NCBI RefSeq assembly: GCF_014204715.1
Contig: NZ_JACHLY010000001.1
Span: 1,457,001-1,521,000 of the forward strand
Direction of reading: 5' to 3'
Length of the DNA: 64,000 nt
Source of the DNA: Streptomonospora salina
GTDB taxonomy: Bacteria; Actinomycetota; Actinomycetes; Streptosporangiales; Streptosporangiaceae
Part shown: positions 7,417 through 14,664 of the stretch, in pieces
How positions within the stretch are numbered: the first letter of the stretch is position 1
How the letters are laid out: every line of letters starts with the position of its first letter
Program-made: the position numbers and the translations under genes
Notes under the pieces: model-generated
The model's input: only the letters and a program-made list of their open reading frames with translations
Told to the model about the DNA's origin: nothing
The model's database searches: none

Positions 7417-8955
7417 TCAGCCGGCGGCGGGCCCTCCGCCGCCCGCACGCGCATCGCCCATGCGGGAGCGCAGGGCCTGCTTGTCGATCTTGCCGACTCC
7501 GCTGCGCGGCAGCTCGCCGACGACGTCGATCCGCGCCGGGACCTTGTAGCGGGCGATCCGCTCTTCGAGGAAGCTGCGCAGCTCGTCGGCGCCGGGCGCG
7601 GCCCCGGGAACGGGCACCGCCACCGCCGCCCCGGCCTCGCCCCACACGTCGTCGGCGATACCGACCACGGCGCACTCGCGCACGGCGGGATGGGCGGCGA
7701 GGACGGCCTCGACCTCCGCCGGGTACACGTTCTCCCCACCGGTGATGTACATGTCCTTGACCCGGTCGACGATGCGGAAATAGCCGTCGCCGTCGACCTC
7801 GGCGGCGTCGCCGGTGTGCAGCCACCCTCCGCGCAGCGCCGCGGCGGTCTCGGCGGGGCGGCCGCGATAGCCCGGGGTGACATTGGGGCCCTCCACCAGC
7901 ACCTCGGCGGGGCCCGGTCCGGTTCCGGCGGTGCGCACGTCGGTGAAGAACGCCGCCACACCGGCGCTTCCGGCCTTGCTCCCGCAGTCGGCCACAGGCA
8001 GCATCAGCGCACCCGGGGCCGCCTCGGTCAGCCCGTAGCCCTGCACGAACGCGAGGCCGCGGGCCCGGTAGCGCTCGATGAGCGGCGGCGGCACCGGCGC
8101 CCCGCCGCACATCAGCAGGCGCAGGCCGGACAGGTCCGCGCCGCTCCAGTGGTCCGAGCGCGCGATGCTCTCGTACATGGTGGGAACCCCGAACATCACC
8201 GTCACGCCCGCGTGCTCGATGAGGTCGAGGCTGCGTTCGGCGTCGAACCGCTCCTCCAGCAGCAGGCGCCCGCCTTTGAGCAGCACGGGCAGGCACAGCA
8301 TGTTCAGCGCCGCCGTGTGGAACATCGGCGCACTGACCAGGGCGGTATCGGTACTGGCGAGGTCGGTGTCGACGACCGAGTTGACGCAGTTCCAGGTGAC
8401 GTTGCCGTGGGTGAGCACCACTCCTTTGGGCCGGCCGGTGGATCCGGAGGTGTAGAGCAGCAGGAACGGATCGTCGGCTCCCACGGGCCGGTCGATCTCC
8501 CCGTCCGGCGCCGCGGCCAGCTCCCGCTCCAGGTCCGCGTCGCCTCCTGCTTCCTCTCCGCCGCCGGCGAGGAGGACGTCGCCCACCGGCCCGGCGTCGG
8601 CGAGCGCCGCGGCGTCGCCCCTGCGATCGGCGTCGGCGACGAGCAGGGCGGGGGCGCTGTCGGCGGCCAGCGCCTCCAGCTCGGTGTAGGCCAGGCGGGT
8701 GTTGAAGGGGGTGAACACGGCTCCCAGCAGTGCGGCGCCGAACATCGTCTCCAGAAACTCCGGCCGGTTGGCGCCGAGGTAGGCGACGCGGTCGCCTCGG
8801 GCCACCCCGCGCCGCTCCAGCGCGCGGGCCGTGCGCCGGGAGCGTTCGGCGAGTTCCCTGTAGGCGGTCGTGCGGCCGTCGTGCACGACCGCGGTGCGCG
8901 CGCCGGCCGCACGGGCGCGCCGAGCGGGCCAGGATCCGATGCCGTGGTTGCGCAT
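7417..8955 (-). CDS. fcs: Feruloyl-CoA synthetase-like acyl-CoA ligase
   Basis: An ANL-superfamily ligase that would activate a hydroxycinnamic acid to its CoA thioester through an acyl-adenylate. The 512 residues contain the P-loop-like motif YTSGSTGRPKGVVLTHGN, the adenine-binding QGYGLTEAAPG, GWLHTGDAAEVDGDGYFRIVDRVKDMYITGGENVYP, and the C-terminal catalytic lysine in GVGKIDKQALR. The N terminus (MRNHGIGSWPARRARAAG) resembles feruloyl-CoA synthetases of Streptomyces and Amycolatopsis as I recall them. It is the last gene of the leftward run hydratase-lyase > MHS transporter > ligase, which strongly supports a role in ferulate/coumarate catabolism. Related acyl substrates cannot be excluded. 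Confidence 0.8.
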   Translation of the reverse strand: MRNHGIGSWPARRARAAGARTAVVHDGRTTAYRELAERSRRTARALERRGVARGDRVAYLGANRPEFLETMFGAALLGAVFTPFNTRLAYTELEALAADSAPALLVADADRRGDAAALADAGPVGDVLLAGGGEEAGGDADLERELAAAPDGEIDRPVGADDPFLLLYTSGSTGRPKGVVLTHGNVTWNCVNSVVDTDLASTDTALVSAPMFHTAALNMLCLPVLLKGGRLLLEERFDAERSLDLIEHAGVTVMFGVPTMYESIARSDHWSGADLSGLRLLMCGGAPVPPPLIERYRARGLAFVQGYGLTEAAPGALMLPVADCGSKAGSAGVAAFFTDVRTAGTGPGPAEVLVEGPNVTPGYRGRPAETAAALRGGWLHTGDAAEVDGDGYFRIVDRVKDMYITGGENVYPAEVEAVLAAHPAVRECAVVGIADDVWGEAGAAVAVPVPGAAPGADELRSFLEERIARYKVPARIDVVGELPRSGVGKIDKQALRSRMGDARAGGGGPAAG

Positions 8956-9025
8956 TGCGGTCTCCCCGGAACGTGGGTGGCGGGTGTCGCCAGAGGCGGG
9001 CGGGCGTCGGACGGCTACCGGCGGA

Positions 9026-10348
9026 TCACACCCGCCGGAGGTCGCGTTCGGAGGTCTCGGGGGTCAGCAGCACCGCCAGCGTCGCCAGCAGCGCCATCGC
9101 CGCGAGGTAGAGGCCCACGGCCGCCGAACCGCCCTGGGTCGCGAACAGGGCGGTGGCGACGATGGGCGCCAGTCCCCCGCCGAGCGCGTTGCCCACCTGG
9201 TAGCCGGTGGAGACGCCGCTGTAGCGGACGTGCGTGGGGAACAGCTCCGACAGCAGCGCGGACAGCGGGCCGTATTGGGCGGAGACGACGATGACGGCGA
9301 GGCTGCAGGCCAACAGCGCCCAGAGGAACGTCTCGCGCTCGAACATCGGGAAGAACAGCAGCACGAGCACGATCTGGGCGAATCCCCCGCCGATGAACAC
9401 GCGCCGCCTGCCGAGCTTGTCGCTGAGCGCCGACCACCCCAGGACGGCGGCCAGTTGGACGGCGCTGGCGAGGATCACCACGACCAGCAGCGCGTTGCGG
9501 GAGTAGCTCAACTCGGTGGTGCCGTAGGACAGCGTGTACACGAGGACGATGTAGCCCAGGCCCGTGGACGCGGCGGTCGCGAACGCGGCGCGTACGATGC
9601 CCAGCGGGTGGCGCAGCAGGAGCTCCGACAGCGGCGCGGACCGCGGAGCGTCCTCGTCCTGCCGGCGCTGGTGCCGGTCCTCCTCGAACAGCGGGCTCTC
9701 GTTGACGCTCCGGCGGATGACGTAGCCGACGGCGAGGAGCACGACGCTGGCGAGGAAACCGAGCCGCCACCCCCATTGGGCGAACGCGTCGGCGGCCGTG
9801 GTCGAAGCGACCAGCATGACGAGGTTGGCGGCGATCGCCCCGGCGGGCACGCCGAGCTGGGGTGCGGCACCGAAGAGTCCGCGCCGTCCGGGCGGCGCGT
9901 GTTCGACGGCCATGAGCGCGGCGCCGCCCCATTCGGCGCCCACACCCAGCCCTTGGGCAAGCCGCAGCACGACGAGCAGGATCGGCGCGGCGGCGCCGAT
10001 CTGGGCGTAGGTGGGAAGCAGCCCGATCAGGACCGTGGCCACACCCATGACCAGTAGCGACACCACGAGCATCCGCTTGCGTCCGAGGACCCGGTCGCCC
10101 AGGTGGCCGGCGACGATCCCGCCGATGGGCCGGGCGGCGAACCCGACGGCGAAGGAGGAGAGCGCGGCCAGTTGGCTGGCGAGTTCGTTGTCGGACGGGA
10201 AGAACTGGGGGCCGAAGACGAGGGCGGCCGCGGCGCCGTAGAGGAAGAAGTCGTACCACTCGATGCTGGTTCCGATGAAGCTGGCGAGCGCGATCTTGCG
10301 GGCCTCGCGGTGCCGAGTTGGGCTGTTTTCGGGAGGTGTGCTGGTCAC
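9026..10348 (-). CDS. MFS transporter, metabolite:H+ symporter (MHS) type
   Basis: A 440-residue, 12-span major facilitator. The opening FIGTSIEWYDFFLYGAAAALVF is the hallmark of the MHS branch (shikimate, dicarboxylate and aromatic acid symporters), and the loop 2-3 motif reads GGIVAGHLGDRVLGRKRML. It starts with GTG at 10348, about 100 bases after the hydratase-lyase stop, and precedes the ligase by 70 bases, so the three genes are probably one transcript. From that context I infer uptake of a hydroxycinnamate or related aromatic acid; the sequence alone does not fix the substrate. Confidence 0.85.
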   Translation of the reverse strand: MTSTPPENSPTRHREARKIALASFIGTSIEWYDFFLYGAAAALVFGPQFFPSDNELASQLAALSSFAVGFAARPIGGIVAGHLGDRVLGRKRMLVVSLLVMGVATVLIGLLPTYAQIGAAAPILLVVLRLAQGLGVGAEWGGAALMAVEHAPPGRRGLFGAAPQLGVPAGAIAANLVMLVASTTAADAFAQWGWRLGFLASVVLLAVGYVIRRSVNESPLFEEDRHQRRQDEDAPRSAPLSELLLRHPLGIVRAAFATAASTGLGYIVLVYTLSYGTTELSYSRNALLVVVILASAVQLAAVLGWSALSDKLGRRRVFIGGGFAQIVLVLLFFPMFERETFLWALLACSLAVIVVSAQYGPLSALLSELFPTHVRYSGVSTGYQVGNALGGGLAPIVATALFATQGGSAAVGLYLAAMALLATLAVLLTPETSERDLRRV

Positions 10349-10451
10349 GGCGTCTCCGTTCCAGACGGGGGGATGTGCCCCTGTGCGCGGGCCGATGCCG
10401 GGACGGAGGGCGGGGCGTGCCCTTTCGTCCCGGCGGCCGGATCCGCCGGGG

Positions 10452-11318
10452 TCAGCCGCGTGCGTAGCGGCCCAGGCCCGGACGGAAGGTCTTGTCGTCG
10501 AGGAACTGCTCCATGCCGTGGCTGCGCCCCTGTTCGGGGTCGCGGAACTGCGACTGCTCCAGCTTGGCGTAGAGGTAGTCCTCGGCCTGGTCCCAGTCCA
10601 TTCCGGCGGCGAGCCTGTAGCCGGTTTTGGCGGCCTGGAGGACGACGGGGTTCATTCCGGCCAGGTGCGCCGCGAGCTCGCGGGTCCGCTCGCGCAGGCG
10701 CTCCCCCGGCACGGCCTCGTTGACCAGGCGCATCCGCTCGGCCGCCCGGCCGTCGAAGGTCTCGCCGGTCATGATGTGGTACAGCGCGTCGCGCTGGGGG
10801 ACGACCGCCGCGAGCGCCCGGCTGACCACGCTGCCGGGCGGAATGCCCCAGTTGATCTCGGACAGGCCGAAGCCGGCGTCCTCGGCGGCCACGGCCAGGT
10901 CGCAGGCCACCAGCGGGGTGAACGCGCCGCCGAAGCACCAGCCGTTGACCATGGCCACGGTGGGCTTGGAGTACGTGGACAGCCGGCGCCACTGCCACTC
11001 CGCTGCGGTGCGCCGCACGCGCTTCTGCAGCGCGGGGTCGCCGGTGGCGTCGACGTCGCGGAAGTACTCCTTGAGGTCCATGCCGGCGCTCCAGGAGTCG
11101 CCCGCTCCGGTGAGGACCAGCACGCGGCAGCGCTCGTCGCCCTCCAGCGCGTCGAGGGTGGCGACCATCTCCTCGTTGAGGCGCGGGTTCATCGCGTTGC
11201 GCTTGTCGGGCCGATTGAGCGTCACCCAGGCGATGCCCGCGTCGAACTCGACGAGGACCGCCTCGCCCCAGGGCGGGGACGCGTCGCCGTTGTGGGCGGC
11301 CCGGTCCGCAGACTCCAT
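10452..11318 (-). CDS. ech: p-Hydroxycinnamoyl-CoA hydratase/lyase (feruloyl-CoA to vanillin)
   Basis: A crotonase-fold enzyme that hydrates feruloyl-, coumaroyl- or caffeoyl-CoA and cleaves it to the aromatic aldehyde plus acetyl-CoA. The 288 residues match Pseudomonas HCHL almost block for block as I remember it: LNRPDKRNAM, the oxyanion region WSAGMDLKEYF and WCFGGAF, LSEINWGIPPG with catalytic E154 (Pseudomonas E143) and EDYLYAKL with Y250 (Pseudomonas Y239), ending MEQFLDDKTFRPGL. The residue equivalent to S123 is threonine (T134). ATG at 11318 is chosen because AAGGAG lies six bases upstream; a longer reading to 11381 would run through the promoter. It heads the minus-strand operon and is divergent from marR. 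No vanillin dehydrogenase gene is visible. Confidence 0.92.
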   Translation of the reverse strand: MESADRAAHNGDASPPWGEAVLVEFDAGIAWVTLNRPDKRNAMNPRLNEEMVATLDALEGDERCRVLVLTGAGDSWSAGMDLKEYFRDVDATGDPALQKRVRRTAAEWQWRRLSTYSKPTVAMVNGWCFGGAFTPLVACDLAVAAEDAGFGLSEINWGIPPGSVVSRALAAVVPQRDALYHIMTGETFDGRAAERMRLVNEAVPGERLRERTRELAAHLAGMNPVVLQAAKTGYRLAAGMDWDQAEDYLYAKLEQSQFRDPEQGRSHGMEQFLDDKTFRPGLGRYARG

Positions 11319-11327
11319 GGCAAACTC

Positions 11328-11381
11328 CTTGATATAAGGGACCTTGAGATCTATGTAACAAGAACCTTGATACCGTGTCAA
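11328..11381. promoter_or_regulatory. Overlapping divergent promoters of ech and marR with MarR-type operator
   Basis: Minus strand (ech): -35 TTGACA (11376-11381), 18-base spacer, -10 TACATA (11352-11357). Plus strand (marR): -35 TTGATA (11329-11334), 17-base spacer, -10 TATGTA on the same six bases, 11352-11357. An inverted repeat CAAG-AAC-CTTG (11359-11369) lies in the ech spacer. The word CCTTGA occurs three times in the region (around 11327, 11342 and 11366), and CCTTGATATAAGG at 11327-11339 is a second near-palindrome. A MarR dimer bound here should block both promoters. Confidence 0.7.
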
Positions 11382-11383
11382 TC

Positions 11384-11866
11384 ATGATCGATTCCGCTCC
11401 TGCTCAGGTCACAGCCGAGGAATCCGAGCCGCGCATCATCTACCTGGTGAAAAGGATCGAGATGATCGCCCGGGCGCACCTGGACGGCGTCACCCGCGAG
11501 CAAGGGCTCACCACCCTGCAGTACACGGCCCTGAGCGTGCTGCGTGCCCAACCCGGGCTCTCGGCCGCGCAGCTGGCCCGGCGCTCCTTCGTCAGCCCTC
11601 AGGCCATGACCGAGATGGTCGGCGCACTGGAGGCCAAAGGCATGATCCGCCGCGAGCCCGACCCCGGAAACCGGCGCGTACTCCGCGCCTACCTGACCGA
11701 CACGAGCCGCACCGCCCTGCACGCCTGCGACCGCGGCGCCGACCTCCTGGAGGAGCACATGCTGGGCGGCGTTTCCGCACAGGAGCGGGCCGCCCTGCGC
11801 CGGACCCTCGCCGCCTGCGCCGCGGAGCTCGACACGTTCGCCGGGGCCCCGGCCGCGCCCACCTGA
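11384..11866 (+). CDS. MarR-family transcriptional regulator
   Basis: A 160-residue winged-helix regulator: the helix-turn-helix region is LTTLQYTALSVLRAQPGLSAAQLARRSFVSPQAMTEMVGALEAKGMI, with the wing RREPDPGNRRVLRAYLT and flanking dimerisation helices. It is divergent from ech with only 65 bases between, so it most likely represses the hydroxycinnamate operon and itself, with a CoA thioester or free acid as inducer, as is known for MarR proteins of ferulate and coumarate pathways (FerR, CouR). The start is uncertain: ATG 11384 is chosen, but GTG 11375 is in frame and no ribosome site precedes either. GTG 11375 would overlap the ech -35 box. Confidence 0.88.
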   Translation: MIDSAPAQVTAEESEPRIIYLVKRIEMIARAHLDGVTREQGLTTLQYTALSVLRAQPGLSAAQLARRSFVSPQAMTEMVGALEAKGMIRREPDPGNRRVLRAYLTDTSRTALHACDRGADLLEEHMLGGVSAQERAALRRTLAACAAELDTFAGAPAAPT

Positions 11867-12033
11867 CGCCGGGCCGCTCCCGGCCCGCGGCCCCGCCCGC
11901 CCGGCCGGCCGACCCCGCTGGGATCCGGCCGGGCGCGGACGTGCGCCGGTCTTGTCCCGAGTGCCGGGCGCGCCGTATTTTCGTGGCACCCGCGGTCCCG
12001 GGGAGTTCAGCCGCTGTCACGAGAGAAGACGAC

Positions 12034-13605
12034 ATGGAAACCGCCCTCACCCCGCTGGAGTTCGCCCGCCGCACGCGCCGGCTGCATCCGCGGCGCGAAG
12101 CGGTCGTCGACCAGAGCGTGCGGCTGACCTACGAGCAGTTCTTCGACCGGTGCGACCGGTGGTCGGCGGCCCTGGAGCGGATGGGCGTGGGCAAGGGCGA
12201 CCGCGTCGCCTACATCGCCCCCAACACCCACGCCCAGCTGGAGTCCTTCTACGCAGTCCCGCAGCTGGGCGCGGTGCTGGTGCCGATCAACTACCGGCTC
12301 TCCGCCGAGGACTTCGTCTACATCGTCAACCACTCCGGCGCCACGGTGCTGTGCGCCCACTCCGACCAACTCGCCGTGGTCGACGGCGTACGCGACCGGA
12401 TGCCCGGCGTCGAGCACTTCGTCGCGCTGGAGGGTTCCGGCGAGGGCTGGCAGGACTACGAATCGCTCGTCGCCGCCACGCGGCCGGAGTTCACCCGGCC
12501 CGAGATCGCCGAGACCGACCTGCTGACGATCAACTACACCAGCGGCACCACCGCGCGCCCCAAGGGCGTGATGATCACCCACCGCAACGCCTACATGAAC
12601 GTCGTCGGCACCCTGCTGCACCTGCGCATCGGGCTCGGCGAACGCTACCTGTGGACGCTGCCGATGTTCCACGCCAACGGGTGGACCTACACCTGGACGG
12701 TCACCGCCGCGGCCGCCGCGCACGTGTGCCTGCGCGCCATCGACCGCTCCCGCGTGTTCGAACTGGTCCGCGAGGAGGGGGTCACCTGGATGTGCGCCGC
12801 TCCCACGGTGCTGATCTTCCTGGCCAACACCCCCGAGGAGGAGCGCGGCGCGGTCCCGCCCGGCGTGCACGTCGTCACCGCCGGCGCCTCCCCCGCCGCC
12901 GACACCATCGAGCGGCTGGAGGGCACCTTCGGCTGGTCGGTCACCCACGTCTACGGGCTCACCGAGACCACGCCGTTCATCACCGTGTGCGAACCCCGGC
13001 CCGAGCACACCGGGCTGGACGTCGACGAGCGCGCCGCCGTCAAGGCCCGCCAGGGCGTCGAGCTGATCACCTCCGGTGAGCTCAAGGTCCTCTCCTCCGA
13101 CGGCGGCGAGGTCCCTTGGGACGGCGCCGCGGTCGGCGAGATCGCCGTGCGCGGCAACGTCGTAATGGCCGGCTACTACAAAGACCCCGAATCCACCGAG
13201 AAGGTCATGGGCGACGGCTGGTTCCGCACCGGCGACGCCGCGGTTACCCACCCCGACGGGTTCGTCGAGATCCAGGACCGCATCAAGGACGTCATCATCT
13301 CCGGAGGCGAGAACATCTCCTCGGTCGAGGTCGAAGGCGTCCTGCTGCGCCACCCGGCCGTTCAGGAGGCCGCGATCGTGGGCGTGCCGCACGAACGGTG
13401 GGGCGAGACGCCCAAGGCCTCGGTCGTCCTGCACGACGGGGCCGCGGCCACCGAGGAGGAGCTGATCGGCTTCGCCCGCGACCGTCTCGCGCACTTCAAG
13501 GCGCCCACGCGGGTGGAGTTCGTGGACCAGCTGCCCAAGACCGCCACCGGCAAGATCCAGAAGTACGTGCTGCGTGAGGGCGCATCTGCGGTCTCCCGCC
13601 AGTAG
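12034..13605 (+). CDS. AMP-dependent acyl-CoA synthetase (long- or medium-chain type)
   Basis: A second ANL-superfamily ligase, 523 residues. Motifs in order: NYTSGTTARPKGVMITHRNAY, the PMFHANGWTY substrate region, THVYGLTETTPF, GWFRTGDAAVTHPDGFVEIQDRIKDVIISGGENISSVEVE, and the catalytic lysine in TATGKIQKYVLRE. The GWTYTW and ISGGENISSVE wording is typical of the acyl-CoA synthetase branch near fatty-acid and aryl-propanoid ligases; the acid activated is unknown. ATG 12034 follows GAGAGAAGAC and gives a normal N terminus, while upstream codons are Arg/Cys-rich. It follows marR in the same direction after 167 bases, so it may belong to the aromatic-acid locus or be an independent fatty-acid ligase. 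Confidence 0.88.
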   Translation: METALTPLEFARRTRRLHPRREAVVDQSVRLTYEQFFDRCDRWSAALERMGVGKGDRVAYIAPNTHAQLESFYAVPQLGAVLVPINYRLSAEDFVYIVNHSGATVLCAHSDQLAVVDGVRDRMPGVEHFVALEGSGEGWQDYESLVAATRPEFTRPEIAETDLLTINYTSGTTARPKGVMITHRNAYMNVVGTLLHLRIGLGERYLWTLPMFHANGWTYTWTVTAAAAAHVCLRAIDRSRVFELVREEGVTWMCAAPTVLIFLANTPEEERGAVPPGVHVVTAGASPAADTIERLEGTFGWSVTHVYGLTETTPFITVCEPRPEHTGLDVDERAAVKARQGVELITSGELKVLSSDGGEVPWDGAAVGEIAVRGNVVMAGYYKDPESTEKVMGDGWFRTGDAAVTHPDGFVEIQDRIKDVIISGGENISSVEVEGVLLRHPAVQEAAIVGVPHERWGETPKASVVLHDGAAATEEELIGFARDRLAHFKAPTRVEFVDQLPKTATGKIQKYVLREGASAVSRQ

Positions 13606-13609
13606 TGCG

Positions 13610-13664
13610 CCGGGCCCGGCCGCGGCGGCCGGGCCCGGAACGACCGGTGCGGGCGGCCCGCACC
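13610..13664. terminator. Tandem perfect hairpins between convergent genes
   Basis: Four bases after the ligase stop begins a 12-bp stem, CCGGGCCCGGCC (13610-13621) with its complement 13627-13638, then a 9-bp stem GGTGCGGGC/GCCCGCACC (13646-13664). There is no T-tract. The position between tail-to-tail genes suggests bidirectional termination, as at 7291-7363. Confidence 0.7.
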
Positions 13665-13707
13665 CGCCCGCGGCCGCCGCACCGCACGGGTACGGCGGCC
13701 GCGCGGA

Positions 13708-14664
13708 TCAGGCCTCGCCGGCCACGTCGATCACCAGCTTTCCGGTGGTGCGGCCCGTCTCCCCGGCGCGGTGCGCGTCGGCCAGGCGGTCCAGCGGAAA
13801 GACCTCGCTGACGTGCGGCCGCAGCCGTCCCGACTCCGCGAGATCGGCCACGGCCGTCATCCCGGCGTGGTCGGACTCCACCAGCATGGGCGCGGCGCGC
13901 ACACCGCGCTTCTCGGCCTCGTCGAGGAGGCCTTCCGGCGGGATCGGCAGGATCGTCACCATCGTTCCGCCGCTGCGCAGCACACGCAGCGAGCCGAAGG
14001 CGGTGTCGCCGCCGATGGTGTCGAGCACGGCGTCGACCTCGCCGACCGCCTCGGTGAAGTCGGTCTCGCGGTAGTCGACGGGCTCGTCGACGCCGACCCC
14101 GCGCAGGAAGTCGTGCTTGCCGGAGCTGGCGGTGCCGAAGACGCGGGTGCCCAGGGCCGCGGCGATCTGCGTCGCGAAGTGGCCGACGCCGCCGGCGGCC
14201 GCGTGGACGAGCACGCTCTGGCCCTCCTCCAGGTGGGCGGTGTCGATCAGGGCCTGCAGGGCGGTCAGCGCCGCCAGCGGCATGGCGCCGGCCTCGACAT
14301 GGGTCAGCCCGTCGGGCTTGTGGGCGAAGGAGCGCGCGGGGCCGGTGACGTACTCGGCGAAGGAGCCCGCCCCGTGGGGGTAGGGCAGCATGCCGAAGAC
14401 TTCGTCTCCGGGCTCGAAGACGGTCACCCCGATACCGACGGCCTCCACCACGCCGGAGACGTCCCACCCCAGGACATAGGGCGGGTCGCCGAGGAACAGG
14501 CGGTCGGCCCGGTGCTTCCAGTCGGTGGGGTTGAGTCCGGCCGCGTGGACCCGCACCAGGATCTGCGAGGGGCCGGGCCGGGGGACGTCGAGTTCCACTT
14601 CGTGGAGCACGTCGGGTCCGCCGTGGGTTTTCTGGGACATTGCGCGCATGGTTGTGGCGGTCAT
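13708..14664 (-). CDS. NADP-dependent MDR/quinone oxidoreductase-like protein
   Basis: A zinc-independent medium-chain dehydrogenase/reductase of 318 residues. Residues 30-100 form the GroES-like fold (VPRPGPSQILVRVHAAGLNPTDWKHR, YVLGWDVSGVVEAVG, FEPGDEVFGM), followed by the nucleotide-binding motif SVLVHAAAGGVGHFATQIAAALGTRVFGTAS and the DAVLDTIGGDTAF segment. The four structural-zinc cysteines are absent, as in quinone reductases and reductases of activated double bonds. The start is ATG 14664, with ATG 14649 (MRAMSQ) as an alternative. It is convergent with the acyl-CoA ligase and has no same-strand neighbour, so its substrate is unknown. Confidence 0.88.
   Translation of the reverse strand: MTATTMRAMSQKTHGGPDVLHEVELDVPRPGPSQILVRVHAAGLNPTDWKHRADRLFLGDPPYVLGWDVSGVVEAVGIGVTVFEPGDEVFGMLPYPHGAGSFAEYVTGPARSFAHKPDGLTHVEAGAMPLAALTALQALIDTAHLEEGQSVLVHAAAGGVGHFATQIAAALGTRVFGTASSGKHDFLRGVGVDEPVDYRETDFTEAVGEVDAVLDTIGGDTAFGSLRVLRSGGTMVTILPIPPEGLLDEAEKRGVRAAPMLVESDHAGMTAVADLAESGRLRPHVSEVFPLDRLADAHRAGETGRTTGKLVIDVAGEA

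Follow-up and report, generated by a model that had tools for sequence, protein, structure and literature searches.

A conserved putative MarR operator in the divergent ech-marR control region of Streptomonospora salina and its relatives

The window, a stretch of 64,000 nucleotides from the 5.6-Mb genome of the actinomycete Streptomonospora salina, holds a set of hydroxycinnamoyl-CoA pathway genes that adjoin a gene of the marR family, with a control region of only 65 bases between the divergent ech and marR genes. The genes are:

7417 to 8955, minus strand: CoA-ligase gene (Pfam AMP-binding), a candidate hydroxycinnamoyl-CoA synthetase gene and the last gene of the probable operon
9026 to 10348, minus strand: MFS metabolite:H+ symporter gene (TIGR00883 at 413.6 bits, under the cut-off of 443; Pfam MFS_1), probably within the ech operon
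10452 to 11318, minus strand: ech, encoding p-hydroxycinnamoyl-CoA hydratase/lyase (NCBIfam NF006588 at 442 bits, cut-off 276; Pfam ECH_1), the predicted first gene of the controlled operon
11384 to 11866, plus strand: gene of a putative MarR-family repressor (Pfam MarR/MarR_2), with ATG at 11384 and a possible in-frame GTG at 11375

These matches bear out the identities that a sequence-only reading of this DNA had given to ech, through NF006588, and to marR, through Pfam at the level of the family. The MarR protein scores well over the gathering score of PF12802 and PF01047, the curated equivalog models give no match to it above cut-off, and its nearest solved structure is HcaR of Acinetobacter (E = 1.7e-20). 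HcaR from Acinetobacter baylyi ADP1 (PDB 3k0l, 4rgr, 5bmz) is a MarR-family regulator of hydroxycinnamate catabolism that aligns over residues 12-154; it originates from a different phylum, and the likeness was compared at the protein level alone.

The gene order around the gap is the same in Streptomonospora alba and Streptomonospora sp. PA3, the nearest relatives with the locus, and the divergent arrangement was seen in three genomes only. Within the genus the locus occurs patchily: three of six Streptomonospora-level genomes (G001, G003 and G004) lack a close ech and a close marR. Beyond marR, in the same orientation, comes another acyl-CoA ligase gene (12031-13605), separate from the one listed above and kept in both relatives at 90-93%; no exact CCTTGA word was found in the gap upstream of it. 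At another locus (L044), a ligase 52% identical to that of 7417-8955 is encoded directly 3' of ech. The ech homologues of two further genomes (G342 and G643, 55-56%) were set aside as too distant, and in the former no MarR homologue lies within the 12 kb covered at the ech homologue (L046).

On direct inspection, all strings quoted in the sequence-only reading are present at their positions. The elements to be considered in the gap are:

11325 to 11330, minus strand: ech ribosome-binding site AAGGAG, invariant in the three species
11329 to 11334, plus strand: TTGATA, claimed as marR -35 (5/6 consensus), invariant but within a 26-nt invariant block
11334 to 11348, no strand: putative operator O2, ATAAGG-GAC-CTTGAG, a weaker copy whose core ATAAGGGACCTTG is invariant in the three species
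11352 to 11357, minus strand: ech -10 candidate TACATA, the claimed shared -10 (3/6 here and in S. alba; TACACC, also 3/6, in PA3)
11357 to 11371, no strand: putative operator O1, AACAAG-AAC-CTTGAT, conserved in the three species and one mismatch from the clade-wide motif described below
11368 to 11376, plus strand: extended -10 TGATACCGT (TGATAnnGT), the alternative marR promoter, with the only plus-strand TANNNT of the gap, found in all three species
11376 to 11381, minus strand: ech -35 TTGACA, 6/6 consensus and invariant in the three species

On the minus strand, the ech -35 (11381-11376) and -10 (11357-11352) are separated by 18 bases, and on the plus strand the claimed marR -35 is followed after 17 bases by TATGTA (11352-11357). 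A CAAG-AAC-CTTG inverted repeat occupies 11359-11369, and CCTTGA words occur at 11327, 11342 and 11365. In 5000 dinucleotide shuffles of the 65-bp gap, CAAG-N3-CTTG was found in 0.16% and three CCTTGA words in none, so that we regard the repeats as real. The score of the whole two-promoter arrangement was matched by 0.1% of the shuffles, a value that rests mainly on two -35-like words, of which one is part of the CCTTGATA repeat. This word, TTGATA at 11329-11334, more likely belongs to the invariant CCTTGATA block beside the ech ribosome-binding site and O2 than to a promoter, and the same repeat makes up the right arm of O1.

The inverted repeat in the ech spacer had been proposed as a MarR operator, and this site was confirmed as a prediction by its conservation and by its match to a clade-wide motif, but the extent of the operator region had been underestimated, as a second site, O2, was missed. 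All three Streptomonospora genomes with the locus keep CAAG-N3-CTTG, which in S. alba and PA3 is perfectly palindromic over 11 bp (CAAGGACCTTG); as a putative MarR operator, O1 is thus well supported by sequence comparison. It sits between the ech -35 and -10 and touches the proposed marR -10, and the ech start, expected at about 11345, falls within O2; the centres of the two sites are 23 bp apart, near two helical turns. Palindromic putative operators that lie between divergent genes and overlap promoter elements are what is expected for a repressor of the HcaR/CouR type. We also considered TTGA-N7-TCAA (11367-11381) as an operator and rejected it: its middle differs from species to species, but the arms of CAAG-N3-CTTG stay the same and are met again in other genera.

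O1 might be the sole operator, with O2 and the third CCTTGA word as by-products of the ech ribosome-binding site and of chance. This is in line with the two mismatches that O2 carries to the motif in S. salina and with the overlap of the third CCTTGA with AAGGAG; the core of O2, however, is invariant in the three species, its S. alba version is a single mismatch from consensus, and homologous loci often have paired sites (L005, L006, L048, L058 and others), so that we consider a lone O1 possible but somewhat unlikely. Note that tandem operator copies in homologous MarR loci are exactly 15 bp apart with abutting palindromes (L005 1986-2015, L006 1382-1411, L008 2013-2042, L010 2017-2046, L059 1384-1413 and L071 1382-1411), compared with a spacing of 23 bp in the window.

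The motif matched by O1, ATCARG-N3-CYTGAT, was derived from the window together with a second genus of the family, and consequently only independent loci count as a test of it. In the three genomes of this second genus ech is 74-75% identical and the MarR homologues 47-53%. There marR lies 3' of ech in the same orientation, and ATCAGG-N3-CCTGAT is still found upstream of ech; two of these genomes, of 8.6 and 9.2 Mb, contain no other perfect match to the motif. In a fourth genome (G269) the motif is matched perfectly three times, each time within a single 15-kb cluster that holds marR, an acyl-CoA dehydrogenase gene, an IclR-type gene and ech. Outside the seed loci, the motif with at most one mismatch was present within 250 bp upstream of 17 of the 31 MarR homologues with at least 40% identity. 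For 359 permuted palindromes the mean was 0.09 of 31 loci and the best result 9, reached by near-identical motifs that are one-letter neighbours, and spacer lengths other than 3 bases gave 0-1 of 31. Among MarR homologues below 40% identity the motif was found in one of 13. Several motif-negative homologues keep a CAGG-N3-CCTG core, and the recognition-helix segment SFV(S/T)xQ(A/T)M is strongly conserved between the genera. When the S. salina genome itself was searched with CAAGRACCTTGATA, the known site was the only perfect match, and as matches with two mismatches occurred at control level we do not claim a wider regulon in this organism. Three genes that face motif-bearing MarR homologues (L071 3-1247, minus strand; L005 1957-2790, plus strand; L058 3-1421, minus strand) were identified as those of a secreted esterase of the PHB-depolymerase type that carries a cellulose-binding domain, of a crotonase and of an aldehyde dehydrogenase. 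The sequences suggest a clade of regulators for the release and breakdown of plant phenolics.

The most far-reaching claim of the sequence-only reading, that both promoters, of ech and of marR, take their -10 elements from one set of six bases (11352-11357), did not withstand comparison among the species. In the alignment the hexamer is TATGTA in the window and in S. alba and GGTGTA in PA3, so that its score as a marR element drops from 3/6 to 1/6 in PA3, while read for ech it stays at 3/6 (TACATA, TACATA, TACACC); no part of the gap varies more than the bases just to its left (AGATC, ATGAA, GTGAA). The element is thus not conserved where the arrangement is. Two -10 elements that start with T-A on opposite strands of the same six bases must both end in A instead of T, and on neither strand does the hexamer have a T at position 6. 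Few promoter positions are as well conserved as this T (-7). Moreover, the -35 elements are 41 bp apart, and any two -10 elements at a spacing of 16-19 bp must therefore overlap: with both -35 elements held fixed, a common hexamer scoring 3/6 or better on each strand arose in 20% of the shuffles.

In a true bidirectional promoter, ech and marR would share this -10 and the orientation of the polymerase would be the switch, with MarR acting on top. The spacing is acceptable for both -35/-10 pairs, the TATGTA hexamer recurs in S. alba, and the transcription starts would be about 19 bp apart; for bidirectional promoters in E. coli the commonest distance is 18 bp (PMC12825309), and divergent starts 7-25 bp apart are a mark of the class. 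Like the shared -10 promoters described by Warman and Grainger (PMC12825309, PMC10268837), the two promoters are opposed and overlapping and would be mutually exclusive. In the known class with starts 18 bp apart, however, -11A and -7T of the two promoters are reciprocally paired (PMC10268837), which requires TANNNTA, and the sequence at 11352-11358 is TATGTAA. Given this missing pairing, the loss of the hexamer in PA3, a score of 3/6 per strand with A in place of -7T on both, and the frequency of such hexamers in shuffles, we judge a true bidirectional promoter improbable; the shared -10 box is poorly supported and probably a coincidence. It is quite improbable that S. salina and S. alba truly share a -10 between two MarR operators, as a repressor-gated bidirectional promoter that was lost secondarily in PA3; if true, this would be an actinomycete promoter whose output is set jointly by polymerase orientation and MarR. 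The accompanying proposal that only one polymerase can be accommodated at a time is supported, as the two promoters overlap so closely, and mutual exclusion is likely from this overlap alone. In E. coli, one of the two directions has to be strongly active for such exclusion to have an effect (PMC12825309).

A better -10 for marR lies 19 bases downstream of the claimed one, inside the operator/-35 region. The TANNNT box at 11368-11376 is contained in TGATACCGT, TGATAATGT and TGATAACGT in the three species and ends 7 nt before the marR ATG, and no good ribosome-binding site precedes ATG 11384. In Streptomyces, TANNNT is the usual -10, with an N7 spacing for the relation of -10 and start (PMC4895711), and about 21-22% of mRNAs are leaderless (PMC4895711, PMC8780764). 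Taken together, these observations favor a leaderless marR mRNA and suggest that it would start from TGATACCGT. Note that TGATAnnGT shares bases with O1 as well as with the ech -35, from which its conservation could stem, so that conservation does not prove a promoter. The in-frame GTG at 11375, nine bases before the ATG, has AAGGA ahead of it in S. alba and PA3 but AAGAA in S. salina; translation could alternatively begin there, provided that the transcript starts upstream of 11358. We discarded TATAAG/TTGATAT near 11331-11338 as a plus-strand -10, since it has no suitable -35 and implies a leader of 40 nt. For ech, the weak point is a -10 without T at position 6 in all three species, and the minus strand of the gap contains no TANNNT in any of them; a sigma-70 scan of positions 9000-14000 with a scanner that demands this T returned no promoter-like site.

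We consider it probable that an HcaR/CouR-like repressor bound to O1 and O2 silences the ech-transporter-CoA-ligase operon as well as its own gene until an inducer binds. The region would then serve the divergent control of a catabolic operon for hydroxycinnamates of the ferulate/coumarate type and of its own MarR-family repressor. One MarR dimer would occupy O1 and a second one probably O2, about two helical turns away, and as O1 lies in the ech spacer and touches the marR -10 and O2 lies over the ech start, polymerase would be shut out of ech and marR would limit itself. A ligand from the pathway, by analogy with CouR probably a hydroxycinnamoyl-CoA, would free the repressor from the DNA, after which ech, the transporter and the CoA ligase would be transcribed leftward from TTGACA-18-TACATA and marR rightward, most likely leaderless from TGATACCGT. 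The two promoters would overlap and exclude each other, yet need no common -10 hexamer. That the MarR protein activates ech instead of repressing it is very improbable: some MarR proteins do activate, but a protein bound between -35 and -10, as at O1, or over the start, as at O2, normally blocks polymerase, and HcaR and CouR, the relatives that have been characterised, both act as repressors (PMC4737184, PMC5487221).

CouR from Rhodococcus jostii RHA1 represses p-hydroxycinnamate genes, uses a single operator for the divergent couN and couR promoters and is released from it by p-coumaroyl-CoA (PMC4737184). As a MarR repressor with an operator serving divergent promoters it is a functional parallel of the ech/marR switch, but CouR (6c28) is only a distant sequence match to the window protein (E = 4.9e-5). 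The CouR box, ATTGA-N5-TCAAT, extends over both -35 elements, whereas in the window it is the ech spacer that holds CAAG-N3-CTTG, and a second copy covers the start. The box by which a CouR orthologue would be recognised was not found, the conserved motif being CARG-N3-CYTG and the TTGA-N7-TCAA at 11367-11381 having another spacing.

The ech/marR control region is an ordinary gene switch of the usual kind. Its wider meaning lies in ATCARG-N3-CYTGAT, which predicts where a whole clade of HcaR-like MarR proteins from this actinomycete order would bind; several of these regulators face genes for crotonases, aldehyde dehydrogenases or secreted esterases of the PHB-depolymerase type. With the motif known, the regulons of this clade become directly searchable, and its members offer candidate sensors for lignin-derived phenolics.
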